A DNA stretch of 64,000 nt, from assembly GCF_014195535.1 (NCBI RefSeq), contig NZ_JACIBY010000007.1, positions 248,001-312,000 of the forward strand, written 5' to 3'. Origin of the DNA: Runella defluvii (lineage in GTDB: Bacteria; Bacteroidota; Bacteroidia; Cytophagales; Spirosomataceae). Numbering within the stretch: the stretch's first letter is position 1; every line of letters begins with the position of its first letter. The notes under the pieces were generated by a model. That model saw only the letters and a program-made list of their open reading frames with translations. It was not told the DNA's origin and searched no databases. Shown here piece after piece: positions 7,752 to 24,863 of this stretch. The position numbers were made by a program, and so were the translations under genes.

Positions 7752-7782
7752 ATACCCGAAATCACCCTAAAACCTATTCTCG

Positions 7783-8994: not shown

Positions 8995-9006
8995 CGTAAA
9001 ATTATT

Positions 9007-9027
9007 ATTGTCTAAAATTAAGACAAT
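9007..9027. promoter_or_regulatory. 21-bp palindromic operator ATTGTCT-N7-AGACAAT (site A)
   Basis: Perfect 7-base arms around an A/T spacer; with the flanking T and A the match extends to 23 bases. The same arms and spacer length recur at 19960-19980 before the ThuA operon, beside a Nudix-type regulator gene. It lies 107 bases before the Dabb gene that opens the rhamnosidase operon. Binding by the Nudix regulator is inference. Confidence 0.7.
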
Positions 9028-9133
9028 ATCAGGTAAGTACAGGATGATTTCTGTATAAAAGAAATATTTTTTTGTACTTATAGTAGCAAAAATGCTTCTC
9101 GTATTCAAAATATCTTAGTGCTTGCCTACAATT

Positions 9134-9430
9134 ATGCTTCGACATTCCGTCATTCTGAAATTAAAACCCTCATTAGGTGCTGACGAGCAACGCGCTTTTT
9201 TCAAAGCAGTTGATTCTCTCGCTACGCTTCCAAATGTTCAAAAGTTTGAGGTGTTGAAACAGATAAGCCCTAAAAACAAATTTGAGTACGGGATTTCAAT
9301 GGAGTTTGCGACTCAAGAACACTATGATTTTTATACAAATCATCCAGAACACGAGGCTTTTATCCAGGATTTTTGGCTAACATCTGTGGACGATTTCTTG
9401 GAAATAGATTATCAAAAAATAAGCTACTAA
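9134..9430 (+). CDS. Dabb (stress-responsive alpha/beta barrel) domain protein
   Basis: A small single-domain Dabb protein (PF07876), with N-terminal MLRHSVILKLKP, a central strand-helix region and closing FLTSVDDFLEIDY-like segment. Dabb proteins form dimeric ferredoxin-like barrels; in Bacteroidota they often sit in sugar or secondary-metabolite loci with no defined reaction. I start at ATG 9134 because family members begin MLRH; the TTG four codons upstream is less likely. It is the first gene after the palindromic operator. Confidence 0.8.
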   Translation: MLRHSVILKLKPSLGADEQRAFFKAVDSLATLPNVQKFEVLKQISPKNKFEYGISMEFATQEHYDFYTNHPEHEAFIQDFWLTSVDDFLEIDYQKISY

Positions 9431-9480
9431 GTGTGCCTCCTTGAGATAAACATGGCGATAATCAACTAATACACAGTGAT

Positions 9481-10347
9481 ATGAAAGGGATGTTTCAATG
9501 TCCAAAGAGTAACATTATAAAATTGACAATACTTCTGATGTATTGTTTCTCAATCGTATCATACGCTCAAAGTAAAGCAACCTCGGTCGATTGGAAACTA
9601 GGGGTGGCGCTTTATACCTTTAGTACCGCATCATTTCCCGACCAATTGGCCTACGCCGACAGTGCTTCCTTAAAGTACGTGGAAGGGTTTGTGTTTGCCA
9701 AAGCAGGAAAAGAACTCCAAGACTCGGTGTTATTTCGGCTTTCGCCGTCGGGGCTTCAGCATTTGAAAAAGCAGATAGCTGATAAAGGGCTTAAAATGGA
9801 GTCGATTTACATCATTGGAGGTAAAACCGTGGCCGACTGGAAACGCGATTTTGACATAGCCAAAGCGTTCGGAGTTAAATACGTGACGGCCGAACCACCC
9901 CGAAATTTATGGAACAGCGTGGATAGTTTGGCGGGTGCTTATGGGGTGAAAGTGGCTTTGCACAACCACTGGAAAGGAAACAGTATCTATTGGCATCCCG
10001 ACTCGCTATTAGCAGCGTTGGAAGGACATCCCAACTTCGCGGCTTGTCCCGATTTGGGGCATTATCCAAAATCAGGAATAAATCCAATTCTAGCCTTGAA
10101 AAAACTGCAAGGTAAAATCATTGGCATTCACCTAAAAGACATCGCGGAATACAACAATAACAAACTCCAAGATGTGCCTGTAGGAACGGGAGTAATCGAC
10201 TTCCCAGCGGTTTTTGACGAATTGAAGAGCCAAAACTACAAGGGATATATCATGATTGAACGTGATACCAAAGAGAAGCCGTCGAACCTTTCCTCGGTGA
10301 AGCAGACGGTCAATTTTTATTATAAAACGCTATCCATCCCCCGCTGA
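9481..10347 (+). CDS. secreted sugar phosphate isomerase/epimerase-like TIM barrel
   Basis: A 288-residue AP-endonuclease-2/xylose-isomerase-like TIM barrel with an export signal (hydrophobic stretch IIKLTILLMYCFSIVSYAQ). Barrel and metal-site landmarks are VALHNHW, DLGHY, GIHLKDI and the C-terminal IMIERD. Exported members are common in Bacteroidota and are thought to isomerise or oxidise free sugars in the periplasm. It is followed 46 bases later by the GH106-like gene, which suggests a role in processing released sugars. Confidence 0.82.
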   Translation: MKGMFQCPKSNIIKLTILLMYCFSIVSYAQSKATSVDWKLGVALYTFSTASFPDQLAYADSASLKYVEGFVFAKAGKELQDSVLFRLSPSGLQHLKKQIADKGLKMESIYIIGGKTVADWKRDFDIAKAFGVKYVTAEPPRNLWNSVDSLAGAYGVKVALHNHWKGNSIYWHPDSLLAALEGHPNFAACPDLGHYPKSGINPILALKKLQGKIIGIHLKDIAEYNNNKLQDVPVGTGVIDFPAVFDELKSQNYKGYIMIERDTKEKPSNLSSVKQTVNFYYKTLSIPR

Positions 10348-10393
10348 GGTAGGCAGCTAGTGTGCGCTCTTTTTTACCAACAACTCTAATTGA

Positions 10394-13300
10394 ATGAGAA
10401 TGAAAACGAAAATTCAAGCTGTTGTAGCCTTGCTACTCGTGTCGAGTGTAGGAGGTTATGCCCAAGACAAAACTCAATTTCAAACACCGCCCAGCTCGGC
10501 CAAGCCGCGTGTTTGGTGGCATTGGATGAACGGAAATATCTCCAAAGAAGGCATCCAAAAAGACTTAGAATGGATGCAACGTGTGGGTATCGGCGGGTTT
10601 CAAAACTTTGATGCCAACTTGTTTACGCCCGTCGTAGTGCCCAAAAAGCTTGTCTTTATGACACCCGACTGGAAAGATGCTTTTAAGTTTACTACGCAAT
10701 TGGCCGACCAAAAAGGGCTCGAAATGGCCATAGCAGGTTCGCCAGGCTGGAGTGTGACGGGCGGCCCTTGGGTTAAGCCCGAAGATGCCATGAAAAAATA
10801 CGTTTGGACCGAAACTCGGATTGAGGGAGGAAAACCATTTTCAGGGAAATTGCCCCGACCTTCGGACATAACGGGAAAATACCAAAATGTTGAAATAGGA
10901 GCAGGAGGACTCACGGGGGGATTTGTGGGTGAAAAACCTAAATTTTACCAAGATGCGTTGGTGATTGCGTACCGACTTCCCAATTCGGAAAAAACGCTGA
11001 CTGAATTAGCGCCTAAAGTGAGTTCGAGCGGAGGAAGTTTTGCGCTGAAAGAATTGACAGATACTGATTTAAGTAAGGCTACGTTGTTGCCTCCAATGGC
11101 GGTAGGGCAAGAGATGTGGCTTCAGTACGAATTTGAAACCCCACAAACATTTAAAGCATTTTCTTTGGCAGGCGCCAACGAGGGTGCATTGTCAGAGTTT
11201 CGGGGAAATCCTGAAAACCGAACGTTGAAAGTAAGCGACGACGGTGTGAATTTTCGTGAAATTGCCAAAGTGTCAGGAAGTACCGTTCCTTACAACACCG
11301 TAGCCATTGCTCCGACCACGGCGAAATATTGGCGGATGTGTTGGAAAACCCTTGCGCCTGCTCCCAATATGTTTGCTGCCATGGCAGGTCGCCCTGCCGA
11401 AGAGCCTAAACCTGAAGGGGTTCACGTGGCCGAGTTTGTGTTGCACAGCAATAGCCGCATCGACCAGTTGGAAGATAAAGCAGGTTTTACACCTTGGAAA
11501 GAGAGTAGCCCCTCAAGCAGCCCCCTAAGCCCCAATGGGGGGATTGAAACCATTCCCACCTCAGATGTTATTGATTTAACATCTTTGATGCAACCTGATG
11601 GTACACTCAATTGGGAAGCCCCTATTGGGAGTTGGGGGGTGATTCGTCTCGGTTATTCACTTACAGGTCGTCAAAATCACCCAGCGTCTCCCGAAGCGAC
11701 TGGTTTAGAGGTAGATAAATTGAATAAAGAGGCCGTTCGTCGTTACATCAATACCTATTTGGACATGTACAAAGACGCCACGGGAGGATTGATGGGGGCT
11801 AAAGGTCTCAATTACATGGTGTTGGATAGCTACGAAGCGGGACACATGAACTGGACCAAAAGTTTTCCTGATGAGTTCAAAAACCGCCGCGGGTATGACC
11901 TTCGCCAGTGGGTGCCTGTCTTGACGGGCAGAATCGTGACATCATTGGAGGCAAGTGAGAAATTCCTGTGGGATTTTCGTAAAACGATTGGTGAGCTGAT
12001 TGCCGAAAATCACTACGATGTGATTGGAGAAGAATTGAAGAAACGCGGCATGAAACGTTATACCGAAAGCCATGAAAATGGACGGATTTATTTGGCCGAC
12101 GGCATGGACGTAAAACGCAACTCAGACATTCCAATGTCGGCCATGTGGACGCCAGGGAGCTTGGCGGGTGGAAACGACGAGGAAGTGCGGAGCGAGGCAG
12201 ATATTCGTGAATCGGCTTCGGTAGCCAATATTTATGGAAAACCCATCGTGGCGGCAGAATCAATGACGTCGGTGGGGAAACCCTTTCAAGAATATCCTGA
12301 AAAATTGAAACGTACTGCTGATTTGGAAATGGCGTCGGGTTTGAACCGATTTGTGATTCACACGTCCGTTCACCAACCGCTCGATGATAAAAAACCAGGG
12401 TTTTCGCTTGGGCCATTTGGACAGTATTTTACCCGCCAAGAGACGTGGGCCGAAGCGGGAGGCAAAGCATGGATGTCGTACTTGGGGCGTAGTTGTTATT
12501 TACTTCAACAAGGCCGCAACGTCGCGGATATTTTATACTATTATGGCGAAAACAACAACGTGACGTGGATTAGTCGCGAAAAATTGCCCTCAATTCCAGC
12601 GGGTTATGAATTTGATTATGTCAATTCTTCCGCACTATTAAATGCCATTAAGGCTCAAAATGGTAAACTCGTGGCGCAAAGTGGTAATACGTACAGCCTG
12701 TTGGTACTGGATGAATCGGCGAAACTGATGACCTTGCCTGTTTTGAAAAAAATTCGTGATTTGGTCAAAGCAGGGGTAAAAGTAGTCGGTGAAAAGCCGC
12801 TAAAATCGCCAAGTTTGTCCGATAATGAGGGTGAATTTCAGTCGATTGTGAATGAAATTTGGTCAAATCCAAACGTCAATGTAGAGACGTTGCATGCAAC
12901 GTCTCTACCAAAACCCGACGTAATTATTTCAAATACCCCCAATAAAATCCTGTATCGCCACCGACAGGTTCAAGAAACCGATATTTATTGGTTAAATAAC
13001 CGTAGCGACAACCCTACCAATGCCGAAGTGAGTTTTCGGGTAACGGGCAAAGTACCAGAAATATGGAACCCACAAACGGGCAAAGTCGAAAAAGTAAGTT
13101 ACCAAATGAAGGATGGACGCACGATTGTTCCTTTGAAATTTGAATCATGGGATGCGTTTTTTGTTGTTTTTAAAGACAAAGCCACGGCCAATAACTACGC
13201 CAAGGCTGCTACTAAAGAAACGCCCCTGAGCCAAATGTCGGGCGCATGGCAAGTAAGCATTGCAGGTAAAAGCGCAACGATGGATAAACTGACTTCTTGG

Positions 13301-13705
13301 AGTGAAAATACCGATGTTGACATCAAATATTTCTCAGGTACTGCCACGTACAACAATAATTTCCAAATAAATACCCCCATTGGGCGGTCTGCCGATGCGG
13401 GCAAGGGGGCTGTTATTCTTGATTTGGGTGAGGTTAAAAATATCGCGGAGGTGATTGTGAACGGTAAAAACGTAGGTACTGTTTGGAAAAAGCCGTTTAA
13501 AATCGACATTACTTCGGCGGTGAAAGAAGGTAATAATACCCTTCAAATCAATGTTACCAATAGCTGGGTCAACCGCCTTGTGGGGGATGCACAGCCCGAT
13601 GTTAAGGAAAAAACGACCTTCACAACCATGCCGTTTTACCGAAAAGATTCACCTTTGGTTCCTTCAGGGTTAGTAGGAGAGGTGAAGGTATGGCAAGTGA
13701 AATAA
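10394..13705 (+). CDS. GH106-like alpha-L-rhamnosidase, secreted
   Basis: An 1103-residue secreted enzyme. The signal peptide ends at GGYAQ. The N-terminal catalytic region contains PRVWWHWMNGNISKEG and GIGGFQNFD, typical of GH106 rhamnosidase-like proteins, with TESHENGR later in the barrel. The C-terminus has a beta-sandwich (LDLGEVKNIAEVIVNGKNVG) of galactose-binding type. The expected activity is cleavage of alpha-L-rhamnose from rhamnogalacturonan or plant glycosides. Two repeat elements are translated in frame: a C/G-rich block at about residues 371-383 and a perfect 28-base palindrome at residues 830-838. A third G-rich block lies near 13373. The reading frame is intact throughout. Downstream are an esterase and a GH78 enzyme. 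Confidence 0.88.
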   Translation: MRMKTKIQAVVALLLVSSVGGYAQDKTQFQTPPSSAKPRVWWHWMNGNISKEGIQKDLEWMQRVGIGGFQNFDANLFTPVVVPKKLVFMTPDWKDAFKFTTQLADQKGLEMAIAGSPGWSVTGGPWVKPEDAMKKYVWTETRIEGGKPFSGKLPRPSDITGKYQNVEIGAGGLTGGFVGEKPKFYQDALVIAYRLPNSEKTLTELAPKVSSSGGSFALKELTDTDLSKATLLPPMAVGQEMWLQYEFETPQTFKAFSLAGANEGALSEFRGNPENRTLKVSDDGVNFREIAKVSGSTVPYNTVAIAPTTAKYWRMCWKTLAPAPNMFAAMAGRPAEEPKPEGVHVAEFVLHSNSRIDQLEDKAGFTPWKESSPSSSPLSPNGGIETIPTSDVIDLTSLMQPDGTLNWEAPIGSWGVIRLGYSLTGRQNHPASPEATGLEVDKLNKEAVRRYINTYLDMYKDATGGLMGAKGLNYMVLDSYEAGHMNWTKSFPDEFKNRRGYDLRQWVPVLTGRIVTSLEASEKFLWDFRKTIGELIAENHYDVIGEELKKRGMKRYTESHENGRIYLADGMDVKRNSDIPMSAMWTPGSLAGGNDEEVRSEADIRESASVANIYGKPIVAAESMTSVGKPFQEYPEKLKRTADLEMASGLNRFVIHTSVHQPLDDKKPGFSLGPFGQYFTRQETWAEAGGKAWMSYLGRSCYLLQQGRNVADILYYYGENNNVTWISREKLPSIPAGYEFDYVNSSALLNAIKAQNGKLVAQSGNTYSLLVLDESAKLMTLPVLKKIRDLVKAGVKVVGEKPLKSPSLSDNEGEFQSIVNEIWSNPNVNVETLHATSLPKPDVIISNTPNKILYRHRQVQETDIYWLNNRSDNPTNAEVSFRVTGKVPEIWNPQTGKVEKVSYQMKDGRTIVPLKFESWDAFFVVFKDKATANNYAKAATKETPLSQMSGAWQVSIAGKSATMDKLTSWSENTDVDIKYFSGTATYNNNFQINTPIGRSADAGKGAVILDLGEVKNIAEVIVNGKNVGTVWKKPFKIDITSAVKEGNNTLQINVTNSWVNRLVGDAQPDVKEKTTFTTMPFYRKDSPLVPSGLVGEVKVWQVK
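11504..11542. repeat. C/G-rich repeat inside the GH106-like gene
   Basis: TAGCCCCTCAAGC is followed by AGCCCCCTAAGC and then CCCAATGGGGGG. This is a half copy of the element seen as a full inverted repeat at 21744-21821. It is translated as a Ser/Pro stretch (SSPSSSPLSPNGG) in a linker before the VIDLTSLM strand. Confidence 0.6.
12881..12908. repeat. perfect 28-bp palindrome inside the GH106-like gene
   Basis: GTAGAGACGTTGCA / TGCAACGTCTCTAC with no spacer. It begins exactly on a codon boundary and encodes VETLHATSL (residues 830-838) just before LPKPDVI. Its perfect symmetry inside a coding sequence is not expected by chance. Confidence 0.85.
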
Positions 13706-13730
13706 TAGAAACAATGAACGAAAAGTAAGA

Positions 13731-13752
13731 GGCGGGGCAACCCGCCTTTTAT
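13731..13752 (+). terminator. intrinsic terminator after the GH106-like gene
   Basis: GGCGGG / CCCGCC arms with a GCAA loop, followed by TTTTAT. It lies between the GH106-like gene and the esterase and may reduce rather than block read-through. Confidence 0.7.
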
Positions 13753-13784
13753 ATTGGAAAAAAGTTTGCCAAACCTGCCTGAAT

Positions 13785-14687
13785 ATGAACTTGTCACGCT
13801 TAACCTTTTGCTTTTTACTACTGATACAAACGGGGCTTGCCTTTGGCCAGAAACCCAACCCGATGATTAAATTTTTTCCGCAGGGCACGGTTTTGCACGG
13901 AAATATTCCTTACAACAATGATACGTTGTCTAAGCACTTGCTGGACATTTATTTGCCCCCAAACCCCAAAAATAAAATGCCGTTGGTGGTTTGGGTTCAT
14001 GGCGGTGGGTGGTTGGTCAACGACAAATATGCCGACATGGGCTACATGAAAAGCACCATTTCGGAGCTTCTCAAGAGCGGATTTGCGTTGGCGTCCATTG
14101 ATTATCGTTTTGCCTCGCAAGCTGTTTTTCCCGCACTTATTCAGGACTGCAACCGTGCTATTTCATTTTTGTACGACAATGCTGCTCAATATGGGTACGA
14201 CAAAAATCGCATAGCCTTAATGGGTTTTTCGGCGGGGGGGCATTTGGCTTCGTTGATGGCTTTGTCCAAAAACAATAAAATAGAATCGTTTTTTATGCCA
14301 AACACTTCTAAAGCGTTTACGTTTAAAGCGGTGGTTGATTTTTATGGGCCTTCCGATTTGACTTCACTTAATTCGAGTGAAAATCCAAAGGCCAACGAAG
14401 GGGTATTGCTAGGGGCTGCGCCCATTGACCGTCCCGATTTGGCCAAAATTGCCAGTCCAGTTACGTATGTTGACAAAAATGACCCGCCTTTTTTAATCAT
14501 CCACGGCGAAAAAGATGAAAGCGTGCCCAATCGTCAATCAAAATTGCTGAACGGTTGGTTGAAATCCGTGGGCGTTCAAAGCGATTTAATCATTGTCAAA
14601 GACGCCCCGCATTTTGGGGTGATGTTTGATGCCCCCGAAATTCGTTCTCGAATCCTGAGCTTTTTAAAAGAAACCCTAAAACCATGA
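13785..14687 (+). CDS. secreted alpha/beta hydrolase, BD-FAE/lipase-like esterase
   Basis: A 300-residue exported esterase (signal peptide ending GLAFGQ). It has the hormone-sensitive-lipase-type HGGGW oxyanion motif, nucleophile GFSAGG, acid in HGEKDESVP and base in DAPHFGV. Relatives deacylate polysaccharides or small esters. Its stop codon overlaps the ATG of the GH78 gene, so the two are translationally coupled. Removal of acetyl or other acyl groups from rhamnose-containing glycans is likely. Confidence 0.85.
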   Translation: MNLSRLTFCFLLLIQTGLAFGQKPNPMIKFFPQGTVLHGNIPYNNDTLSKHLLDIYLPPNPKNKMPLVVWVHGGGWLVNDKYADMGYMKSTISELLKSGFALASIDYRFASQAVFPALIQDCNRAISFLYDNAAQYGYDKNRIALMGFSAGGHLASLMALSKNNKIESFFMPNTSKAFTFKAVVDFYGPSDLTSLNSSENPKANEGVLLGAAPIDRPDLAKIASPVTYVDKNDPPFLIIHGEKDESVPNRQSKLLNGWLKSVGVQSDLIIVKDAPHFGVMFDAPEIRSRILSFLKETLKP

Positions 14688-17428
14688 AGTTGGTCAGAAA
14701 ATCTTGCTTGTTTGCGCTGGTTTTGGTTCATTATCAGGTATTAGCGCAGTTGAGTGTCTCAAAGTTGACTTGCGAATACATGGACAATCCTTCGGTGGTG
14801 GATGAAAAACAGCCGAGGTTGTCGTGGGTAAATCTTGCCCAAAACAACGATAGAGGCCAAAAACAAACGGCTTACCAAATTCGGGTAGCTACCAGCCGAA
14901 CGGCGCTCGCCACGCCCGATTTGTGGGATAGCGGCAAAATCAGCAGTGAGGTTTCTCATCGGGTGCGTTATGCAGGAAAAGCCTTGGCATCGCGCGACAA
15001 TTGTTTTTGGCAAATTCGGGTATGGGATAAAAATGGAAAGCCATCAGCTTGGAGTTCGGTAGGGCAGTGGCGGATGGGTTTGTTGAACCCCACCGACTGG
15101 AAAGCCGAGTGGATTGGAGCGCCTTGGCAAGGAGAGGAGGCACTTCCAAAACCTCCAGGAGGACCCAATGAACGCACCAAACTCTTGCCACCACCCGCAC
15201 CTTTGTTGCGTAAAAGCCTGACAATTACCAAGAAACTCAAACAAGCAGTCGTTTATACGACGGGGTTGGGGTATTTTGAGATGTATGCCAATGGTCAAAA
15301 AGTATCCGACGATTTGTTGGTTCCTAACCAAACCAATTACGACAAACGACCGTCGTTGCCCAAAGCTTACATTTCGCTGCCCGACGAATTTCGCGATTAC
15401 CAAGTGATGTACCTAGCTTACGATTTGACCCATCTTTTAAAACAGGGAAAAAACGCCATTGGAGCTATTCTTGGCAATGGGTTTTACAATGCGCCAAAAT
15501 TTTGGACGGCGTCGTACGGCTCGCCCCGATTTATTGCACAGCTGCACCTGACCTACCAAGATGGGAGCGAAGAGGTGATTGTGTCGGATACTTCGTGGAA
15601 AGCAGCCAAATCGGCCATTCAATCTGACTTGGTATTTGACGGGGAAATATACGATTCGCGCGAAGAGCAGCCCGATTGGTGCCAGCCGACCTTTGATGAT
15701 TCGCGCTGGGCATCGGCCATCAAACGCCGCACACCTCATGGCCGCTTGGTTGCGCACACGTCGCCTACCGATAAGATTACCAAGGTATTACAGCCAATTT
15801 CGGTTCAAAAACTGCCGAATGGGAATTACAAGGTGAATTTTGCCGAAGAAATATCGGGTTGGGTGCGGCTCAAAAACGTATCAGCGCCTGCGGGTCATTC
15901 CATCAAAATGACCTTCAACGCCAACGTTTATTCGGGAGAAAATACCTTTATTTTCAATGGTCAAAAGTCCCAAACCTACGCGCCTCGGTTCAATTGGTTT
16001 GTATTTAGCGGGGTCGAAATCAGCAATTGGTACGGCGAACTCAAACCCGAACACATCCAGGCTGAGGCCGTTAACACAGACGTGAAGGAAAACGCCGTTT
16101 TTGAAACCTCCAATGTGCTGTTTAATCAAATTAACCACATTTGGCGGCGTAGCCAAATGGACAATATGCACGGTGGTATCGCCTCCGATTGTCCACACCG
16201 CGAACGTTCTCCCTATACAGGCGACGCGCAAGTGGCTTGCCATACCGTCATGCACAATTTTGACGCCCGTGCTTTTTACAAAAAATGGCTCAATGACATG
16301 CTTTCGGCACAAATCCCCGCCACGGGCTACATTCCCAACGGCGCACCTTGGCAACCTGGGTGTGGTGGAGGCGTGGCATGGGGCGCGGCCATCCACGTGA
16401 TTCCTTGGGAGTTTTACCAACACTACGGCGATGTCGAGCTATTGAAGGAAAATTACGAAGGGATGACGGGCTACATGAAGTACATGAAAACGTGGGTCAA
16501 CGACGAAGGAATCATGTTTTCGCAGCGGACGGGCAACGATGGAAAGCCCTTGCAATGGTGGAATTTGGGCGACTGGGCAGGGCTGAAAGGAAAACTCCCA
16601 CCCGATGCGCTCGTACATACGTTTTATTATTGGTTGTGCGCGGACATTACGGCCAAAACGGCCCAAATTTTGGGGAGAGCCCAAGAGGCATCAGCCTACC
16701 GAGCCATTGCCGAAAATACCAAAAAGGTATTTGTTTCAAAATTTTATAACGCTCAAAAAGGAACCTTTGGAAAGTATGGTGCGAATATTTTTGCCCTTAA
16801 AATGGGACTGGAAGGGACGCAATACAAAGCCGTTGTCGCTTCGTTAAAAAACGACATTGCGGAAGCTGATGGGCATCTTGATACGGGTATTTTTGGCACG
16901 CGTTACTTTTTTGAAGTATTGGCCGAAAATGGGCTGAATGACTTGGCTTACAACGCCCTGAACAAGAAAACGTTTCCAAGTTTTGGGCATTGGATTGAGC
17001 TAGGAAGTACCACCACCCGTGAGTTTTGGGACGAAGACGGATCACACAACCACCCCATGTACGGGGGAGGATTAAGTTGGTTGTATCGACACTTAGCAGG
17101 CATGAAAACCGACGAAAAAGCAACGGGGTATAAGCACATTGTATTTCAACCCATGCCCGTGAAAGAACTGGCCTTTGCCAAGTATTCGACAGAGTCCAAC
17201 TTTGGAAAAGCAGGAATCGAATGGCGTCAAAACAACGGTTTTGAAATGTTGCTGGACGTGCCCGTTGGAAGCACAGCGACGGTGCATTTTCCCAACGGAG
17301 CCAATCGTAAAATTACCGAAAATAACCTCGATATCACCCGCCTCAAGTCAGTGTCTAACCTTCGTGTCGAAGGCGATGATGTGGTGTTTGAGCTTGAGAG
17401 CGGTACGTATCATTTCAAAGCGAAGTGA
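14684..17428 (+). CDS. GH78 alpha-L-rhamnosidase, secreted
   Basis: A 914-residue GH78 enzyme with a signal peptide. Domain order: N-terminal Fn3-like region (LTCEYMDNPSVVDEKQPRLS), Bac_rhamnosid_N beta domain (YTTGLGYFEMYANGQKV), concanavalin-like domain, (alpha/alpha)6 barrel and C-terminal beta domain. The barrel signature DCPHRERSPYTGDAQ begins at residue 502 and matches the GH78 DCPxRxE..GD motif. The later WIELGSTTTREFWDE carries candidate catalytic Glu residues. It hydrolyses terminal alpha-L-rhamnosyl bonds. It overlaps the esterase by 4 bases. Confidence 0.92.
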   Translation: MKLVRKSCLFALVLVHYQVLAQLSVSKLTCEYMDNPSVVDEKQPRLSWVNLAQNNDRGQKQTAYQIRVATSRTALATPDLWDSGKISSEVSHRVRYAGKALASRDNCFWQIRVWDKNGKPSAWSSVGQWRMGLLNPTDWKAEWIGAPWQGEEALPKPPGGPNERTKLLPPPAPLLRKSLTITKKLKQAVVYTTGLGYFEMYANGQKVSDDLLVPNQTNYDKRPSLPKAYISLPDEFRDYQVMYLAYDLTHLLKQGKNAIGAILGNGFYNAPKFWTASYGSPRFIAQLHLTYQDGSEEVIVSDTSWKAAKSAIQSDLVFDGEIYDSREEQPDWCQPTFDDSRWASAIKRRTPHGRLVAHTSPTDKITKVLQPISVQKLPNGNYKVNFAEEISGWVRLKNVSAPAGHSIKMTFNANVYSGENTFIFNGQKSQTYAPRFNWFVFSGVEISNWYGELKPEHIQAEAVNTDVKENAVFETSNVLFNQINHIWRRSQMDNMHGGIASDCPHRERSPYTGDAQVACHTVMHNFDARAFYKKWLNDMLSAQIPATGYIPNGAPWQPGCGGGVAWGAAIHVIPWEFYQHYGDVELLKENYEGMTGYMKYMKTWVNDEGIMFSQRTGNDGKPLQWWNLGDWAGLKGKLPPDALVHTFYYWLCADITAKTAQILGRAQEASAYRAIAENTKKVFVSKFYNAQKGTFGKYGANIFALKMGLEGTQYKAVVASLKNDIAEADGHLDTGIFGTRYFFEVLAENGLNDLAYNALNKKTFPSFGHWIELGSTTTREFWDEDGSHNHPMYGGGLSWLYRHLAGMKTDEKATGYKHIVFQPMPVKELAFAKYSTESNFGKAGIEWRQNNGFEMLLDVPVGSTATVHFPNGANRKITENNLDITRLKSVSNLRVEGDDVVFELESGTYHFKAK

Positions 17429-17437
17429 TTGGAAAGA

Positions 17438-17471
17438 GGTGGGGCTAACTAATACTATTTGAAGCCCCACC
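17438..17471. terminator. hairpin after the GH78 gene
   Basis: GGTGGGGCT / AGCCCCACC arms around a 16-base loop, between the convergent ends of the GH78 and ATPase genes. No T-run follows on the plus strand, so it may be a processing or weak termination hairpin. Confidence 0.5.
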
Positions 17472-17518
17472 GCAGTAGCCAAAATGGCCTTGCCCGCTGC
17501 TAAAGCCGCCGAACTACT

Positions 17519-18931
17519 TTACTGGTAAAAATCTTGAAGTGTAATTTCGTGGTCTATTAAATGTCCATCGTATTGGATAGACTGTAAACCTGATTTTGTA
17601 ATGAATGTTAAAAAAACGGTTTTTTTAGTGCCTGATTGCCATTTGAAGTTTTCTAACCGTGCCTGTAGTTGATTGCCATATTGCTTATTGATGATGAGGG
17701 GCTTATCGGCGTATTTTATCTCGCAAATATTGATACACTGGTCATTTCTGTCAATGATTAAATCAATTTGAGCCCCCTCGAAACGACCCTGAGGTTTCAG
17801 AGAATAGCTGTATTGGCTAGAAACAATACCTGATATGCCAAGTTTTTGCTTGATTTTGTGAATATGCTTGAAACAGAAATTTTCAAAAGCATAGCCTTGC
17901 CAAGCTTTGAATGCTTGGCTTTGGCTTATCGCATTAAAATTGGTGTATTTAGCCCCTTCTACAAATCGTAAATAAAAAATCGAAAATTCATCCCACAAGC
18001 GATATCGTTTTTCCTTCTTTTTGTTTCCTAATGGTAAGGAAACCATTAAAAAGCCTGATACCTCTAATTCTTCTAAAATTTTGGTCAAAGTACCACCTGA
18101 GGGAACCCCACTGAGTTTGACGATTTCGCTTTGAGTAACTCCCTGCCATTTGGAGAAGCAGGCTTTAATTACAGCCATGTAATGGTTAGGGTTACTAAAT
18201 AAGGCAGCATACAAATTTTGAAACTCATATTTTAAGGGAGCTTTGTCTTCAAAACACAGTTTACCAACGACTTGCGGGACTGATAATCCTTTTTCGACTA
18301 ATTTCAAATAATATGGTATTCCACCCAAAGCCATATACAATTCTGTAATTTGAGGCTCATTGAACTTGATTCCCCGCTCTTTTAAAAATAATTGGGTTTC
18401 TTGGCAAGTAAATGGATGTAAGTAAATCGTACGGGTAACTCGGTTGTGTAATCCCCCCTTGTTCTGAATGAGGTGAGTGACCATCCAAGAAGTGGCTGAA
18501 CCACAAACAGCCACAACGACATTGTTTTTGGAAGCCCAGCTATTCCAAAAATAGCCAAATGCTTTCAAGAAATCAGACTTAGGCCCTGCAATCCAAGGTA
18601 ATTCATCAATAAAAATAACGGGTTTTTTGACTGGTTTTATGCTTGATAGTGAGGTGATTAGTAGCTGAAATGCTTCCAGCCAATTGTCTATTTTTGCAGG
18701 GATTAACTCTTTTCCAAAAGTATTTCTTAATTCAAAAAGAAAGCTATTAAGGTGCTCTTTGCGACTACCGTTTTGGATGCCAACAAACTCAAACACGATG
18801 TTTTGTTTGTAAGTTTCCCTTATCAAAAAAGTTTTACCTACTCGCCTTCTTCCAACTACGGCCACCATTTCGGCTTCTTTTGAAGCTAAAAGTTGACCCA
18901 TAATAGCGATTTCTTCCGTGCGTCCTATCAT
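17519..18931 (-). CDS. AAA ATPase with DUF234/PD-(D/E)XK-like C-terminus
   Basis: A 470-residue protein of the archaeal-type ATPase_2 plus DUF234 family. Walker A is GRRRVGKT (residues 27-34), Walker B is VIFIDE (Asp109-Glu110), then a winged-helix segment (SEIVKLSGVPSGGTLTKILE) and a C-terminal nuclease-like motif (IDLIID...CEIKY). The family is widespread, often patchily distributed, and its function is unresolved. It is transcribed alone, leftward. Its upstream region contains two copies of an inverted repeat. Remnants of two related ATPases lie at 40.5-41.1 kb. Confidence 0.87.
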   Translation of the reverse strand: MIGRTEEIAIMGQLLASKEAEMVAVVGRRRVGKTFLIRETYKQNIVFEFVGIQNGSRKEHLNSFLFELRNTFGKELIPAKIDNWLEAFQLLITSLSSIKPVKKPVIFIDELPWIAGPKSDFLKAFGYFWNSWASKNNVVVAVCGSATSWMVTHLIQNKGGLHNRVTRTIYLHPFTCQETQLFLKERGIKFNEPQITELYMALGGIPYYLKLVEKGLSVPQVVGKLCFEDKAPLKYEFQNLYAALFSNPNHYMAVIKACFSKWQGVTQSEIVKLSGVPSGGTLTKILEELEVSGFLMVSLPLGNKKKEKRYRLWDEFSIFYLRFVEGAKYTNFNAISQSQAFKAWQGYAFENFCFKHIHKIKQKLGISGIVSSQYSYSLKPQGRFEGAQIDLIIDRNDQCINICEIKYADKPLIINKQYGNQLQARLENFKWQSGTKKTVFLTFITKSGLQSIQYDGHLIDHEITLQDFYQ

Positions 18932-18939
18932 TATTTTTG

Positions 18940-19044
18940 TTTTATAGCCAGCGAAATGTGTAACAAAAATAGTACATTTCGCTGGCTATAAAATTATTTT
19001 CAGCGAAATGTGTAATAAAAATGCCACATTTCGCTGGCTATAAA
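18940..19044. repeat. duplicated inverted repeat upstream of the ATPase
   Basis: Copy 1 has perfect 20-base arms (TTTTATAGCCAGCGAAATGT at 18940-18959 and its complement at 18974-18993) around a 14-base loop. Copy 2 has 12-base arms at 19001-19012 and 19025-19036, followed by the same GCTATAAA. On the minus strand the copy 1 loop contains TATTTTTG, a match to the -7 promoter consensus TAnnTTTG, so the repeat could be both promoter and operator of the ATPase gene. Confidence 0.7.
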
Positions 19045-19048
19045 TCGT

Positions 19049-19777
19049 TTATTCTTTCCTAAACCGATACAAATACGGTGCTTTATTCTGCGCCCCCGTA
19101 AATTTCTTTTCGAGGCGTTCGAGTACGTTAAGGTCGAGTATTTTCTTTTGGAAGTTGTTGCGGGCAAACGGCTTGTCATACACTGCCTCGTACAATTCTT
19201 GCACTTCACGCATGGTAAACGTTTCGGGTAAGAGATTAAAGCCAATGAGCTTTTGGTCAAGGTTTTGGCGGAGAGCTTCCAGCGCGGCATCGACCATTTC
19301 GTTGTGATCCATAATCATCTTGGGCAACTCTTTCACATTATACCAACCTACGGAAGCATCAAGCATTCCTCTGCGAGGGCTTACTTTGTTGATGTCCACC
19401 AAGGCGTAATAGCCAATCGAAACAAAGCGTTTGGAGAGCCATTGGAAGCTACTTTCGTCTAAAATCCCTTTACTCAGCCATTCTGCTTTCATGTTGTTGA
19501 AACCCTCAAAGATTTCGTGATTGATGCGAGTCGGTTCCCCAAAAACGCGATATTGTTCTAGGTAAATATCCGTAAGCCCCGTGCGCTCTTCCAAAATTCG
19601 TTGAGCGGCCAAGTCAATGCTTTCTTCTTGCTTGATAAATCCCCCAGGCAATGTCCAGACGGAGTGAGGGAGGTCAACTTTAGAAACTAACACCTTTAAT
19701 TCTAATTCTTGATAACCAAAAATAACACTGTCGATAGAGAGTTGGCGAATAAAATGGCCTTCGTCGAATAACTTCAT
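19049..19777 (-). CDS. Nudix-fold transcriptional regulator, NrtR/AraR-like
   Basis: A 242-residue protein with an N-terminal Nudix domain and a C-terminal winged helix (FNLLPETFTMREVQELYEAV ... KILDLNVLERL). The Nudix box begins at Gly46, but the catalytic REuxEExG core reads RILEERTGL (60-68): Ile61 and Arg65 replace two metal-binding Glu residues. It is therefore probably not an active hydrolase but a ligand-sensing repressor, like the sugar-responsive Nudix regulators of Bacteroidota. It is divergent from the ThuA operon, with the palindrome ATTGTCT-N7-AGACAAT between them; the same site precedes the rhamnosidase operon. Confidence 0.83.
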   Translation of the reverse strand: MKLFDEGHFIRQLSIDSVIFGYQELELKVLVSKVDLPHSVWTLPGGFIKQEESIDLAAQRILEERTGLTDIYLEQYRVFGEPTRINHEIFEGFNNMKAEWLSKGILDESSFQWLSKRFVSIGYYALVDINKVSPRRGMLDASVGWYNVKELPKMIMDHNEMVDAALEALRQNLDQKLIGFNLLPETFTMREVQELYEAVYDKPFARNNFQKKILDLNVLERLEKKFTGAQNKAPYLYRFRKE

Positions 19778-20065
19778 GGGGCGTAGTTTTAGGAATTGGT
19801 AAATTTCAAATTAGGGATACATACACAAACTAAACATGAAAGTTACACTTTTGGCAGGCTTTCAAATAATATACGGCTATAAAAAGCTCATTTTCATTTA
19901 TCCCTGTATTTTGCCGTTTATAAAATATAACTCTTCAAAGACAAAATAATGCAAAAATTATTGTCTTTAAAATAGACAATAAAAATTTTTATTCTATACC
20001 TTTGTTGTGTTATACATCTAACGCATTCGCAACCAGTACTTCTATTCGCCTAAAAAATTACCTCA
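19778..20065. promoter_or_regulatory. divergent regulatory region between regulator and ThuA operon
   Basis: A 288-base A/T-rich intergenic region. Site B of the palindrome (ATTGTCT-N7-AGACAAT) is at 19960-19980. It overlaps a longer inverted pair, AAAGACAA at 19937-19944 with TTGTCTTT at 19961-19968. The perfect -7 element TACCTTTG at 19997-20004 faces the ThuA gene, and site B covers the place of the -33 element. This geometry suits a repressor that blocks the sigma factor. Confidence 0.7.
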
Positions 20066-20920
20066 ATGAAAAAAATCATCAAAATTGTACTGGGAGTCAT
20101 CGTTGGCTTGGTGGTACTGTTGAGCGCCGTGGCGGGAATATTCATTTACAAGGTAAAAAACGGATTTCCTGTGTCTTACGAGACCGAAGCGCCCCAAATC
20201 ACGTTCCCAACGGATAAGCCTGCCATCCTGCTTTTTTCAAAAACGACAGGATTTCGTCACGGAGCGTCAATTGATGCCTCAAAGCCTGTGATTGCTGACT
20301 TGGCCAAGAAAAACAATTGGTATTTGTATGAAACGGAAGAAGGAGGGGTATTTAACGCTCAACAGCTGGCGAAATTCAGCGTGGTAGTGTTCAACAATTC
20401 GACGGGTGAGGTCATTAATGACGAGCAAAAACGAGTGCTGGAACAGTACGTGGAGAACGGTGGCAGCCTGATGGGGATTCACGGGGCTGGCGACGACTCA
20501 CACCACTGGGATTGGTACGAAAAACATTTGTTAGGGGCGAAGTTTTCGCACCACCCCCTTGATCCACAGTTTCAAATGGCCGATATTTTACTTGATACGC
20601 CCAAAGACAGCCTCTTCAGTACATTAGTGCCCAAATGGTCTAATTCGGACGAGTGGTACGTATTTTTTGAAAATCCCCGTAAAAAGGGCTTCAACATCGT
20701 ATATACCATCAATGGCGAAAGTATCAATCCTAGCGGAAATATGCTGTTTGTGTCCACCAAAAACTTTGGCATGGGCAAAGACCACCCCGTGGCATGGTAC
20801 AAACAAACGGGAAAAGGCAAAACTTTTTACACTTCAATGGGGCACAACGAAACCGCTTGGCAGAATACCAATTTTGTGAAATTGATTGAAACGGCTTTGC
20901 AGTGGAGTGCCAAAAAATAA
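20066..20920 (+). CDS. ThuA-like domain protein, membrane anchored
   Basis: A 284-residue protein with an N-terminal transmembrane anchor (IIKIVLGVIVGLVVLLSAV) and a ThuA-like class I glutamine-amidotransferase-fold domain (PF06283). Landmarks include ILLFSKTTGFRHGASI, VVFNNSTGEV, GIHGAGDDSHHWDWY and FYTSMGHNETAW. ThuA proteins are linked to trehalose and other disaccharide use; in Bacteroidota they are often exported and paired with sorbosone-type dehydrogenases, as here. It probably acts in the periplasm on an oxidised sugar. Confidence 0.87.
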   Translation: MKKIIKIVLGVIVGLVVLLSAVAGIFIYKVKNGFPVSYETEAPQITFPTDKPAILLFSKTTGFRHGASIDASKPVIADLAKKNNWYLYETEEGGVFNAQQLAKFSVVVFNNSTGEVINDEQKRVLEQYVENGGSLMGIHGAGDDSHHWDWYEKHLLGAKFSHHPLDPQFQMADILLDTPKDSLFSTLVPKWSNSDEWYVFFENPRKKGFNIVYTINGESINPSGNMLFVSTKNFGMGKDHPVAWYKQTGKGKTFYTSMGHNETAWQNTNFVKLIETALQWSAKK

Positions 20921-20971
20921 CCTCAATAAAAATTTAACCTATCAGTAACGTTTTAATTAGTGTACCAATTT

Positions 20972-23900
20972 ATGAAACAAGTAGCTAGTAAGGGTAAGTG
21001 GGTGTTTACACAAGCGGCAGTGATGTTGTTTAGTGCGGCTCACTTGATGGCTCAAGCCCCTAAGGCCAGTGAGGCGAAGGAAAAAGCCGCTAAAGTAACG
21101 GATGTGAAAGAGGTGCGCCCCGAAGAAAACCGTTTTACCAAGGTGGTGTTGGAAGAAAAATTGGATGAGCCAATGGAGTTGACCGTCCTCGACAAAGACA
21201 GGGTGTTGTTCATCCAACGTAAAGGGGAGATTCGTTTGTACAACAATAAAACCAAACAGCTGAAGACCATTGCCAAACTACCCGTTAGCTTAAAATATGT
21301 CAATCGAGAAGGAAAAGAATCGGTGGCGGAAGATGGCGTTTTGGGGTTAGGAAAAGATCCTAATTTTGCTCAAAATCAGTGGATTTACTTGTACTATTCG
21401 TCAACAAAAGGTTCGTATAACGTGCTTTCACGCTTTACGATGAAAGGCGACGAGTTGTTGTTGGATTCGGAAAAAGAAATGTTAAAAGTCGAAACTCAGC
21501 GCGAAGAATGTTGCCATACAGGTGGCTCGATTGACTGGGATAAGGCTGGAAATATGTACCTTTCGACGGGCGATAATACCAACCCTCACGCTTCAAATGG
21601 ATACAGTCCAAGCGACGAACGTCCAGGCCGCAGCCCTTGGGATGCCCAAAAATCAAGTGCCAATACCAACGATTTGCGAGGTAAAATCCTCAGAATTAAA
21701 CCCCAAGCGGACGGGACTTACACGATTCCAGAAGGGAACCTTTTTAGCCCCCCAGCCCCCAATGGGGGAGCTAAGGGGTGGTCGGCCACAAATGTTCCCC
21801 CATCGGGGGATAGGGGGCTAACCCGCCCTGAAATTTATACGATGGGTCACCGTAACCCATTCCGCATTTCGGTTGACGAAAAAACGGGTAAGGTGTACTG
21901 GGGAGATGTAGGCCCTGATGCTTCTAAGCCAGACCCCAATCGTGGGGCGGCAGGTACGTGTGAGTTTGGGCAAGCATCAAGTGCAGGAAACTACGGTTGG
22001 CCGCATTTTGTGGGCAACAACCAGCCGTACAACAAATTTAACTTTGACACCAAACAATCGGGTGAAAAGTGGGATGTATTTAAGCCAGTTAACAATTCAC
22101 CCAACAACACAGGATTAATACAGCTGCCTCCAGCGCAAGGAGCGATGATTTGGTACAGCTACGCCAAAAGCGAAGAGTTCCCGCTGTTGGGGGCGGGTGG
22201 CTGTAACCCCATGGCTGGGCCCGTATATAACAAAGACAGATTTGCCAAAGCTGAACGCGCATTTCCGAGCTACTACGATGGTAAATTTTTTGCCTACGAG
22301 TGGATGAGGGGCTGGATTATGGCAGTAAGTTTTGACAAAGACGGAAACTACGCGTCGATGGAGCCATTTATGCCAAGTTATAAATTTAGCAATCCAATGG
22401 ACATGGAGTTTGCCGAGAATGGCGACATGTACATGCTTGAATATGGTTCGGGCTGGTTTACGGCCAACGACGACGCGAGGTTGATACGTATAGAGTATAA
22501 CGGTGGCAATCGGAAGCCAAAAATTGAAATGGTCGCCAACCAAATGGGGGGGGCTGTGCCGTTCAACTTGAAACTTTCTTCAAAAGGAACGTCGGATGCT
22601 GACGGTGATGTGTTGAAATATACGTGGAAAATTACCTCCAAAACGGGTTTTACAAAAGTAGTCACCACGCCAGATGCTAACCTTACGCTCGCAAAGGCGG
22701 GCGTTTACAAAGCCACTTTGACGGTTGATGATGGAAAAGGCGGCGTGAATTCGCAGTCGATGGAAATTACGGCTGGAAACGAGCCTCCTGTGTTGAGCCT
22801 CGACATGCCTAAAAGCAATAAGTCGTTTTACGTTTCTAATAAACCATTTAACTACGACATCAAAGTCAATGACAAAGAAGATGGTTCGTTGGGTAAAGGC
22901 ATCGAAGCCGAAAATGTGGCAGTAAGTATCGATTATCTTGCCGAAGGCTTCGATAAAAACATGATTGCCATGGGACACCGTTCGGCGGATGCTAATGCCT
23001 TGGTCGCGACGGGTAAAAAACTCATCCAAGCCAGCGATTGTATGGCGTGCCATAGTGTCGATAAAAAATCAATTGGCCCAACTTACCGTGACGTAGCCAA
23101 GAAATATAAAGGTGACAATACGGCGCTGGAGCGTTTGACCAAGAAGGTCATTTCGGGAGGAAGTGGTGTGTGGGGAGAAACTGCCATGGCTGGACACCCA
23201 CAACTTGCTACGGGCGATGCCTCCGAAATGGTGAAGTATATCTTGAGTATTGCGGATGAAAAACCAAAGTCATTGCCAGTAAACGGTACTTACCTTGCCA
23301 AAGCACCTGCGTCGGATAAAAGCAAAGGCGTATATATCGTTCGGGCAGCGTACGAAGATCAAGGGGCGAACGGCGTGCCTGCGCTACGCTCTGAGCAGAC
23401 GTTCTTCCTTCGTAACTCGAAAGTGGACCCACATACGTTTGACGAGTACAACGAGGTCAATAAAATGTCGTTTGGAGGCAATAACCTAGCGATTCCTTCA
23501 AAACCAGGTGCCTATATGGGGATGAAAGAGGTCGATTTAGAAGGAGTGTCGGAAGTAATCATGTTGGCGTCTGCACCTAAACCACAGGTAAATGCAGCGG
23601 GTGGATTGGTTGAGTTACGTCTTGATTCTCCTACGGGAAAATTGATTGGTAAATCGGAGTTTTTGGAGCCTTCAGATAAAATGGACTTTGCCCCAAAAGT
23701 GCTTAAAATTCCAATAACTGAGCCTGTCAATGACCGTAAATTACACAATGTATATGCTGTATTCCAGAATCCAAAGGCCGATGCCGCCACGCTGATGGTC
23801 GTGTCGGGTGCGGAGTTTAAACTGCCAAGTATAGAAGCGGTGGAGGTAGAGCAACCGAAAGAAGCAGCGGCACCAGCCGACTTTTATGCGGGTAGCTGGG

Positions 23901-24172
23901 AAACGACTGTGATTGGTACTCCGCAGGGGGACGCTGTTATGGTGTTGAACCTAGAACGGAAAGACGGTAAACTAACGGGTACCATCAAGCCAAAAACGGG
24001 GGATTTACCTGCCGAAACCCTCGAAAAAGTGGAGGAAGCTGACGGTAAAATCATGATTTATTTCAAAATGTCTGGTTTTAACATCAACGTAAATCTTGAA
24101 AAAGTGGACGCTGACAATTTGAAGGGCTCGATGATGGGCATGTTTACCACTAAAGCAACACGTAGAAAGTAA
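20972..24172 (+). CDS. PQQ-dependent sugar dehydrogenase-cytochrome c multidomain protein
   Basis: A secreted 1066-residue protein; ATG 20972 starts a good signal peptide (ending SAAHLMAQ), whereas the GTG 12 bases upstream does not. Domains: glucose/sorbosone dehydrogenase beta propeller (about 40-505; CHTGGSI, YTMGHRNPFRI), PKD (about 510-603), cytochrome c (CMACH, 690-694), a CBM6-like beta domain and a C-terminal domain (from about 970, YAGSWETTVIGTPQGD) homologous to the next gene's product. It likely oxidises an aldose in the periplasm and passes electrons through its own haem. A G/C-rich inverted repeat adds about 25 residues between GNLF and TRPEIYTMG, which are nearly adjacent in relatives. 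Confidence 0.9.
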   Translation: MKQVASKGKWVFTQAAVMLFSAAHLMAQAPKASEAKEKAAKVTDVKEVRPEENRFTKVVLEEKLDEPMELTVLDKDRVLFIQRKGEIRLYNNKTKQLKTIAKLPVSLKYVNREGKESVAEDGVLGLGKDPNFAQNQWIYLYYSSTKGSYNVLSRFTMKGDELLLDSEKEMLKVETQREECCHTGGSIDWDKAGNMYLSTGDNTNPHASNGYSPSDERPGRSPWDAQKSSANTNDLRGKILRIKPQADGTYTIPEGNLFSPPAPNGGAKGWSATNVPPSGDRGLTRPEIYTMGHRNPFRISVDEKTGKVYWGDVGPDASKPDPNRGAAGTCEFGQASSAGNYGWPHFVGNNQPYNKFNFDTKQSGEKWDVFKPVNNSPNNTGLIQLPPAQGAMIWYSYAKSEEFPLLGAGGCNPMAGPVYNKDRFAKAERAFPSYYDGKFFAYEWMRGWIMAVSFDKDGNYASMEPFMPSYKFSNPMDMEFAENGDMYMLEYGSGWFTANDDARLIRIEYNGGNRKPKIEMVANQMGGAVPFNLKLSSKGTSDADGDVLKYTWKITSKTGFTKVVTTPDANLTLAKAGVYKATLTVDDGKGGVNSQSMEITAGNEPPVLSLDMPKSNKSFYVSNKPFNYDIKVNDKEDGSLGKGIEAENVAVSIDYLAEGFDKNMIAMGHRSADANALVATGKKLIQASDCMACHSVDKKSIGPTYRDVAKKYKGDNTALERLTKKVISGGSGVWGETAMAGHPQLATGDASEMVKYILSIADEKPKSLPVNGTYLAKAPASDKSKGVYIVRAAYEDQGANGVPALRSEQTFFLRNSKVDPHTFDEYNEVNKMSFGGNNLAIPSKPGAYMGMKEVDLEGVSEVIMLASAPKPQVNAAGGLVELRLDSPTGKLIGKSEFLEPSDKMDFAPKVLKIPITEPVNDRKLHNVYAVFQNPKADAATLMVVSGAEFKLPSIEAVEVEQPKEAAAPADFYAGSWETTVIGTPQGDAVMVLNLERKDGKLTGTIKPKTGDLPAETLEKVEEADGKIMIYFKMSGFNINVNLEKVDADNLKGSMMGMFTTKATRRK
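21744..21821. repeat. G/C-rich inverted repeat inside the PQQ dehydrogenase gene
   Basis: Nearly complementary 26-base arms at 21744-21769 and 21796-21821, built from AGCCCCC, AATGGGGG and their complements, flank a 26-base centre. The element is 78 bases long, a multiple of three, and adds SPPAPNGGAKG...GDRGL to the beta propeller. A half copy is in the GH106-like gene at 11504-11542. Confidence 0.8.
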
Positions 24173-24200: not shown

Positions 24201-24863
24201 ATGAAAAAAGCAATCGTATTGATTCTCGCACTCGTGGGTGGTATCGTATCAGAAAGTGCTGCACAGGCCGATTATTGGGTGGGCAAATGGGAGTTTTTTG
24301 TCAAAGAAACTCCGCAAGGTGACGTAAAAATGACAGGAAATTTGGTGCGCAAAGACGGGAAGTTGACGGGCGACTTGACGCCAATCACTAGCCAAGCGAC
24401 CGAAAAAATTGCCATTAGCTCGATTGAAGAAAGTGCCGATAAAATCGTATTATTTTTCTCGGCGGCTGGCTACGATTTGAATTTAGCCCTCAATAAAGTG
24501 GACGGAGATAACCTCAAAGGATTGTTGGCCGATTCGTTTGAAGCATCGGGAAAACGACTAAAAAGCAATGATTTCTTTGCAGGGAAGTGGGAGATTGTCG
24601 TTGTAGATACTCCAAATGGTGACGCTAAGTTTATTACTGAGCTTGTTCGTAAAGAAGGTAAATTGGCAGGAGATTTGAAAATGACGGCGGGAGATGCTAA
24701 AGAAACAATACCTGCGAAAGTGGAAGAAGCTGAGGGGAAAATTACCCTTTACTTCTCTGCTCAAGGGTACGACGTCAACGTTGAATTAAACAAAGTAGAT
24801 GACGATAACCTCAAAGGCACGCTCATGAATATGTTTGAAGCGAAGGCAAAACGGGTGAAGTAA
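24201..24863 (+). CDS. secreted protein with two tandem beta domains
   Basis: A 220-residue exported protein (signal peptide ending SESAAQA). It is made of two homologous units: GKWEFFVKETPQGDVKM...LVRKDGKLTGDL and GKWEIVVVDTPNGDAKF...LVRKEGKLAGDL, each ending in NKVD-D-NLKG-L. The same unit forms the C-terminus of the upstream PQQ dehydrogenase. The pattern of short alternating strands suggests a lipocalin-like or avidin-like barrel. I do not recognise a named family and give no function; it may bind the dehydrogenase or a small ligand. Confidence 0.8.
   Translation: MKKAIVLILALVGGIVSESAAQADYWVGKWEFFVKETPQGDVKMTGNLVRKDGKLTGDLTPITSQATEKIAISSIEESADKIVLFFSAAGYDLNLALNKVDGDNLKGLLADSFEASGKRLKSNDFFAGKWEIVVVDTPNGDAKFITELVRKEGKLAGDLKMTAGDAKETIPAKVEEAEGKITLYFSAQGYDVNVELNKVDDDNLKGTLMNMFEAKAKRVK

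Follow-up and report, generated by a model that had tools for sequence, protein, structure and literature searches.

A palindrome found twice in Runella defluvii as the probable operator of a Nudix-winged-helix regulator, and a suggested helix-operator code among its relatives

NrtR-family sugar regulators are already known from Bacteroides, where AraR and XylR have been published (PMC4666351, PMC3878776). The available passages of the AraR paper term NrtR proteins repressors and report that effector lowers the affinity of BtAraR for DNA and raises operon expression; L-arabinose is held via Arg34, Arg86 and His131, and in the crystal of the protein with DNA Lys179 contacts G-7, Arg180 intercalates beside position -5 and Asn181 touches the base paired with T-4 (PMC4666351). 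On a broader scale, the passages available of the Prot-DNA-Korr study have recognition-helix residues 1, 2 and 6 join correlations with site positions in the NrtR, Rex and MerR families (PMC5045206). Here we analyse a stretch of 64,000 nucleotides from Runella defluvii (contig NZ_JACIBY010000007.1, positions 248,001 to 312,000; 'the window' below), in which the 21-bp palindrome ATTGTCT-N7-AGACAAT stands before a rhamnosidase operon and again, 11 kb away, before a ThuA-dehydrogenase-cytochrome c operon, where it lies next to the gene of a 242-residue regulator with a Nudix-like domain and a winged helix.

In our assessment, ATTGTCT-N7-AGACAAT is very probably the operator of a dimer of this 242-residue regulator, which would repress both operons and be released by a small ligand. 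The features on which the argument turns are the following:

9007..9027, no strand assigned: operator O1, ATTGTCT-N7-AGACAAT, upstream of the Dabb, TIM barrel, GH106, BD-FAE and GH78 genes
9028..9085, plus strand: conserved hairpin block directly 3' of O1 (-16.2 kcal/mol, z -4.4)
19049..19777, minus strand: regulator, Nudix-like domain plus NrtR-type winged helix, 242 residues, recognition helix ARNNFQKK
19960..19980, no strand assigned: operator O2, ATTGTCT-N7-AGACAAT, between the divergent regulator and ThuA genes
19997..20004, plus strand: TACCTTTG, 16 bp from O2 and likely the -7 box for transcription of ThuA

A pattern scan of the window recovers both perfect copies where a preliminary description of this DNA had placed them. 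That description had noticed no further copy in the intergenic DNA of the window, and the same now holds for the whole genome (7,991,252 bases in 50 contigs), whose only two perfect copies are O1 and O2. As to imperfect matches, the window has three, each with three mismatches (five places at up to three mismatches in all, a count no higher than chance would give, with 3.76 expected), and the genome has two places with one mismatch and 43 further ones with two; the pattern written backwards, used as a control, matches at six places in the genome with up to two mismatches. One of the one-mismatch places precedes a paralogous gene of the Nudix-winged-helix type (C9) by 86 bp, and the other, judged by sequence, is apparently inside a short coding region. 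A possible but unproven third target in this genome is an outer-membrane barrel gene (L006) that begins about 20 bp after a two-mismatch site; the encoded protein is 30% identical to one behind the perfect site of L035. O2 is separated by 183 bp from the regulator start at 19777 (minus strand) and by 85 bp from the ThuA start at 20066, and O1, which begins 12 bp past the stop codon of a major facilitator superfamily (MFS) transporter gene (8994), is about 105 bp from the likely ATG (9134) of the Dabb gene, for which the open reading frame list gives a TTG start at 9122. An Rfam scan of positions 8900-20200 yielded only five matches, all below the gathering score and to eukaryotic families, which we take as chance.

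The preliminary description had predicted a small regulon together with its regulator, and the assignment of the regulator is strongly supported: the site travels with relatives of the protein, and its letters track their recognition helix. The first of these two lines of evidence comes from 80 loci of named genomes, each encoding a relative of the regulator. In 47 of the 80, the 260 bp in front of the regulator gene contain a perfect palindrome (at -259 to -89), with the seven-base arms constant and the spacers varying; identical arms occur 8 bp apart in 11 more loci and a 7-spaced site with one mismatch in six, and arms 6 or 9 bp apart were found in none of the 80. At 59 of the 63 exact sites with 7- or 8-bp spacing, the gene run that starts at the site includes the regulator. 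In the 13 genomes of the genus, where the suggestion had been to look for conservation in related species, the five with an ortholog at 69-100% identity are exactly the five with a perfect site, and the other eight, whose best regulator matches reach 52-61%, have none; nor does the backwards pattern have a perfect match in these 13 genomes. At the scale of the family (101 genomes), the true pattern is present in 51 genomes and the backwards control at three places. In the 71 family genomes that were searched for both site and regulator, at least 31 of the 44 perfect sites are followed within 300 bp by a regulator gene among the matches listed.

The second line is the covariation of protein and site. 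The operator of the window, a 21-bp dyad of the kind that helix alpha6 reads at -7 to -4 in the NrtR/AraR family, has the register of the BtAraR operator, with GTCT replacing GTGT, and among the relatives particular helices accompany particular operator cores: RNN occurs with GTCT; RTN, RAN and RSN with GTAT; M, I, T or A before NN with A or T before TCT; and DRRN with GTGT. Most of these helix-operator rules were fixed before 100 further regulators were collected, those for Ser180 and Asp180 not being among them (residues are given in BtAraR numbering). A template blind to positions -7, -5 and -4 found a full-score site in 128 of 210 regulators, against 1.8% of block-shuffled upstream sequences (species duplicates included). 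For counting we used a set of 148 regulators, from which scores below 10 and spacings other than 7 or 8 were excluded and from which 15 regulators with chance-like or doubtful sites had been removed by hand (L173, L088, L017, L136, L116, L049, L091, L084, L162, L172, L230, L189, L199, L194 and L195). Some of the removed rows contradict the code, in that L194 and L195 have Arg179 with T on one arm. Within the 148, G-7 is present on both arms in 123 of 125 regulators with Arg179 (L097 and L206 being without it) and in none of the 23 with another residue there. The count for residue 180 was confined to the 131 regulators that have Asn181, lack Asp178 and show one identical base, C or A, on the two arms: C-5 goes with Asn180 in 104 of 104, and A-5 goes with Thr, Ser or Ala180 in 27 of 27. 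The 17 regulators outside this count comprise 13 in which residue 181 is not Asn, three with Asp178 (GTGT) and one with Asp180 (GTTT). L196 (383-1093), with helix RRDN and ATTGTTT...GGAACAAT, is the sole clear case of T-5 that we saw.

We also applied a stricter test to 87 new regulators less than 95% identical to the earlier ones, without hand removal. Forty-two of these had no full-score site with 7- or 8-bp spacing and were left unscored; for the 45 that could be scored, -7 was predicted correctly in 45 of 45 and -5 in 36 of 38. The two misses are L173, in which an overlapping ATTATCT site fits, and L182, which pairs DRTNF with GTGT. In the C9-type clade, which has A, S or T as residue 181, the -5 rule breaks down: T or S at 180 pairs with C. 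In a FastTree phylogeny from which the helix columns had been left out, the class of residue 179 changes 8 times and the class of base -7 10 times, residue 180 and base -5 change 6 times each, and the spacing changes 3 times. An independent-pairs test had 3 and 4 pairs, too few to reach 0.05; changes in the same direction averaged 2.9 and 4.0, and those in the opposite direction 0. These data suggest that the equivalents of residues 179 and 180 choose operator bases -7 and -5, and since the letters at these positions covary with helix residues, docking sites may be predictable from protein sequence.

The position of the sites agrees with repression. A promoter box had been announced beside the second site, and TACCTTTG indeed lies at 19997-20004, 16 bp past O2. 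Of 146 sites upstream of regulators, which are phylogenetically non-independent, 102 have a TAnnTTTG box on the target side no more than 60 bp away, and in each of the 102 the distance to the end of the operator is 12-17 bp. On the other side, towards the regulator gene, 69 sites carry 70 such boxes, and the distances peak at 16-18 bp (44 boxes). The Bacteroidota promoter consensus places the -33 element some 20 bp ahead of the -7 box. Given this consensus and a box 12-17 bp away, the operator should cover the -33 region, which fits repression by occlusion. We infer a sequence of events in which the effector-free dimer would sit on O2, cover the region upstream of the -7 box and so repress the ThuA-dehydrogenase-cytochrome c operon, perhaps along with its own gene, and in which a dimer on O1 would repress the rhamnosidase operon. 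A small ligand, most likely a sugar from rhamnose-containing glycans or its product, would enter the Nudix-like pocket and free the regulator from DNA, much as L-arabinose does for BtAraR. That the regulator is instead an activator at these promoters is conceivable, because dyads adjoining the -33 region can serve activators, but we hold it improbable: at a distance of 12-17 bp from the -7 box the consensus puts the -33 region inside the operator, and the precedent of NrtR proteins and of the BtAraR effector points the other way (PMC4666351, in the passages available).

Several observations weigh against the assignment as a whole. Sixteen of the 80 loci lack, within 280 bp, any 7- or 8-spaced site that is perfect or has a single mismatch, although part of them have other helices or lie inside an operon; a perfect site in L061 and a one-mismatch site in L056 lie about 2.1 kb upstream, and L054 has none. 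Thirteen of the 44 perfect sites in the family genomes are not beside any regulator among the matches listed. No TAnnTTTG box occurs within 60 bp on either side of O1. Finally, the C9 paralog of the same genome (C9:208158-208832, 40% identical, helix HRGAF) has a similar operator, ATTGTCTC-N5-GTGACAAT, so that cross-binding is possible. C9 might even be the main binder of both window sites, given that its own upstream site, ATTGTCACAAAATGAGACAAT, is one base off the pattern and that most of its relatives have sites of the ATTGTC[TG]C-N5 type. We regard this as very improbable, however. The called sites of the C9 clade have C and, with the exception of L231, G at -3/+3, whereas both window sites have A/T there; O2 adjoins the gene of the window regulator rather than that of C9, and it is among relatives of the window regulator that the perfect site recurs upstream, in 47 of 80 loci. 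Moreover, five genomes of the genus (G001, G003, G004, G006 and G010) lack a close ortholog of the window regulator and have a C9 ortholog (74-76%) with its own ATTGTCTC-type site, but no perfect ATTGTCT-N7-AGACAAT, which argues that the perfect site is that of the window regulator.

The inclusion of O1 in the same regulon, as first proposed, holds up as far as conservation and gene content go, and falls short in that the usual promoter box is missing. With that box absent and the MFS stop codon only 12 bp before it, O1 could belong to the terminator of the MFS operon instead of being a working operator of this regulator, as O1 and the block next to it fold into two hairpins (-23.1 kcal/mol, z -4.5). 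We think this unlikely. The stem of O1 is AT-rich, which speaks against a terminator, GH106 is part of the operator-led gene run elsewhere, at 4 of the 63 exact sites, and a second perfect site of the O1 type is found in four genomes of the genus (the window genome, G002, G005 and G007) that have all kept the regulator: its seven-base arms are invariant and identical to those of O2, and its spacer changes. Beyond the spacer and second arm, these four genomes have a conserved block of about 50 bp, followed by divergent sequence. The same MFS gene precedes the site in three of them, and G002 keeps only a stretch resembling the MFS 3' end; the next gene is Dabb in two genomes and the BD-FAE esterase in two. 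Across the 13 genus genomes the hairpin block has eight matches at up to two mismatches, of which the four perfect ones are all at O1-type sites; a one-mismatch match in G010 is inside a long open frame without similarity to window genes, and no operator was found in the adjoining bases examined at the two-mismatch matches in G001, G004 and G006. Leader, terminator and promoter element are candidate roles for the block at 9028-9085.

Returning to the dimer operator and its regulator, we note that the protein is a new member of the known NrtR/AraR family. Its Nudix-like domain is N-terminal and its NrtR winged helix C-terminal, the domain scores all exceed the cut-off (PF00293 30 bits, PF21906 68.3 bits, PF19368 34.7 bits), and its AlphaFold2 model (predicted local distance difference test, pLDDT, 89.6) has AraR 5bs6 as its best PDB match (E 2.7e-22), followed by NrtR 3gz5/3gz6 (E about 5e-15). 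In the model about 30 extra residues at 85-115 appear as two helices. The Nudix box GX5EX7REUXEEXGU reads GFIKQEESIDLAAQRILEERTGL, two of its four glutamates being I61 and R65, and judging by these residues it is catalytically impaired. Among the matches listed, the nearest named relative is from Runella limosa, 95% identical over the regulator. The genome itself has seven paralogs at E <= 0.01 (13 matches, five genes being split in two), of which one (L024) is NrtR-like in lying beside a NAMPT-like gene, one is beside an FGGY kinase gene and one beside a GH43 gene.

Such paralogs appear to keep their operators apart. After genomes listed under two names were merged, 37 genomes had at least two called operators, and no two operators of one genome agree at once in letters, extension and spacing (47 of 47 pairs differ); when operators were reassigned at random, 5.9 pairs were equal on average and 1 of 2000 draws had none, with a permutation that ignores genome-specific sampling of paralog clades. 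In Arcicella aurantiaca, a Cytophagales metagenome-assembled genome and Lacihabitans CCS-44, spacing alone (7 versus 8 bp) separates two paralogs with the same RNN helix. The 8-bp spacing also occurs with AANN, VRTN and DRTN helices. We lean slightly towards the view that the sugar-type Nudix-winged-helix paralogs of Spirosomataceae and their neighbours form mutually insulated repressor-operator pairs, in which residue 179 would set -7 (G or A/T), residue 180 would set -5 (C, A, G or T), residue 181 would influence -4, and dimer geometry would set the 7- or 8-bp spacing, with paralogs of the same helix separated by a single base pair.

The genes predicted to stand under the two operators are the following:

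9122..9430, plus strand: Dabb (stress-responsive A/B barrel) protein, first gene past O1, likely true start ATG 9134
9481..10347, plus strand: xylose-isomerase-like TIM barrel (AP_endonuc_2), a profile match
10394..13705, plus strand: GH106 alpha-L-rhamnosidase, sole full-length match in the genome, with one partial match on another contig
13785..14687, plus strand: BD-FAE type alpha/beta hydrolase (esterase), homologs directly past O1 in two other genus genomes
14684..17428, plus strand: GH78-type alpha-L-rhamnosidase
20066..20920, plus strand: ThuA family protein, first gene under O2
20960..24172, plus strand: glucose/sorbosone dehydrogenase-PKD-cytochrome c fusion protein
24201..24863, plus strand: tandem-duplicated module of about 100 residues, secreted-looking, without Pfam family, recurring beside these operators

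Gene runs at the 63 exact sites contain the dehydrogenase-cytochrome c gene at 36, the small secreted module at 27 and ThuA at 15, in addition to the four with GH106. The module (GKWE...GDAK...LVRKEGKLTGDL...DNLKG), which has no Pfam match, makes up tandem copies behind a signal-like N-terminus at 24201-24863, recurs at the C-terminus of the 20960-24172 protein and elsewhere forms stand-alone genes of 125-140 residues beside many operators. In ten loci (L031, L035, L037-L039, L041 and L044-L047) the operator is followed by short-chain dehydrogenase/reductase (SDR) and/or approximately 402-residue genes, with ThuA in 7 of the 10; Pfam gives SDR in L031 and L038 and MFS in L031 and L041, the rest being assigned by similarity or length. 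Between the ATPase and regulator genes, a hairpin repeat (AGCGAAATGTGTAA...ACATTTCGCTGGCTATAAA) occurs twice in tandem at positions 18940-19045, and no further copy of it was found in the genome at up to three mismatches. The gene run upstream of O1 (17-8994) encodes a HisD-like dehydrogenase, an SDR, a cyclase, a flavin adenine dinucleotide (FAD) monooxygenase, an FAH-family hydrolase with a below-cut-off match to 2,4-didehydro-3-deoxy-L-rhamnonate hydrolase, an esterase and the MFS transporter; it is possibly a pathway for a deoxy-sugar or an aromatic glycoside. A literature search on a link of ThuA and the TIM barrel to 3-keto-glycoside metabolism gave no useful match among the papers listed.

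As to the effector, a rhamnose-type ligand from rhamnose-containing glycans is our best guess, because a GH106 homolog of at least 40% identity is present in 11 of the 80 loci and the window genome has its one full-length copy here. L-arabinose, by contrast, appears unlikely, and the least likely of rhamnose, arabinose and xylose, because V34 replaces the Arg34 of BtAraR and because of the insertion at 85-115.

What began as an observation of two sites thus becomes a regulator with a predicted operator and a target list across a bacterial family. The interest is that of the specialist and lies in a predictive helix-operator rule and in the spacing difference between paralogs: the former would allow the operators and regulons of other uncharacterised Nudix-winged-helix proteins to be predicted, and the 7- versus 8-bp spacing in same-helix paralogs provides a compact natural experiment on how cross-talk between duplicated repressors is avoided. 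To our knowledge, few orthogonal repressor-operator parts exist for Bacteroidota, and these pairs may be a source of them.

In the listed titles and opening lines of abstracts from the published literature, mostly outside subscription journals, we found neither this regulator nor this operator in Spirosomataceae, nor the 7/8 spacing. The Prot-DNA-Korr passages available mention neither a sugar-type clade nor the 7/8-bp spacing, unlike the present case (PMC5045206). XylRA, considered as a related system, is an AraC-type protein according to the passages available and hence unrelated (PMC12125979). With NrtR, the ADP-ribose-responsive regulator of nicotinamide adenine dinucleotide (NAD) genes, the window regulator has its domains in common; however, no NAD biosynthesis gene is among its neighbours scanned, and NCBIfam NF050029, described as an ADP-ribose-responsive repressor, scores 80.6 on it against a cut-off of 400. 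BtXylR (BT0791), the predicted D-xylose regulator, is likewise an NrtR-family sugar regulator, a likeness drawn from the descriptions in the passages available (PMC3878776, PMC4666351). The closest described system is BtAraR (BT0354), the L-arabinose repressor of Bacteroides, which has the same Nudix-like plus winged-helix architecture, glycan-degrading genes among its neighbours and, in the passages available, a 21-bp near-palindromic operator in the same register, G-7 T-6 n-5 T-4 (PMC4666351). In the pocket, H158 of the regulator aligns with His131, and R84, invariant in a 45-row alignment, corresponds to Arg86 by counting on from the alignment. The two proteins differ in that they are only about 35% identical and in the roughly 30 residues that the regulator has in addition. 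The regulator is not linked to arabinose genes: its neighbours are ThuA, dehydrogenase-cytochrome c, ATPase and rhamnosidase genes, and its predicted targets are ThuA, dehydrogenase-cytochrome c and the rhamnosidases rather than ara genes. The DNA contacts K179, R180, N181, K184, K204 and R205 of BtAraR are not all kept, the regulator having R, N, N, K, N and K, so that an RNN helix and a GTCT core in the window stand where BtAraR has KRN and GTGT.

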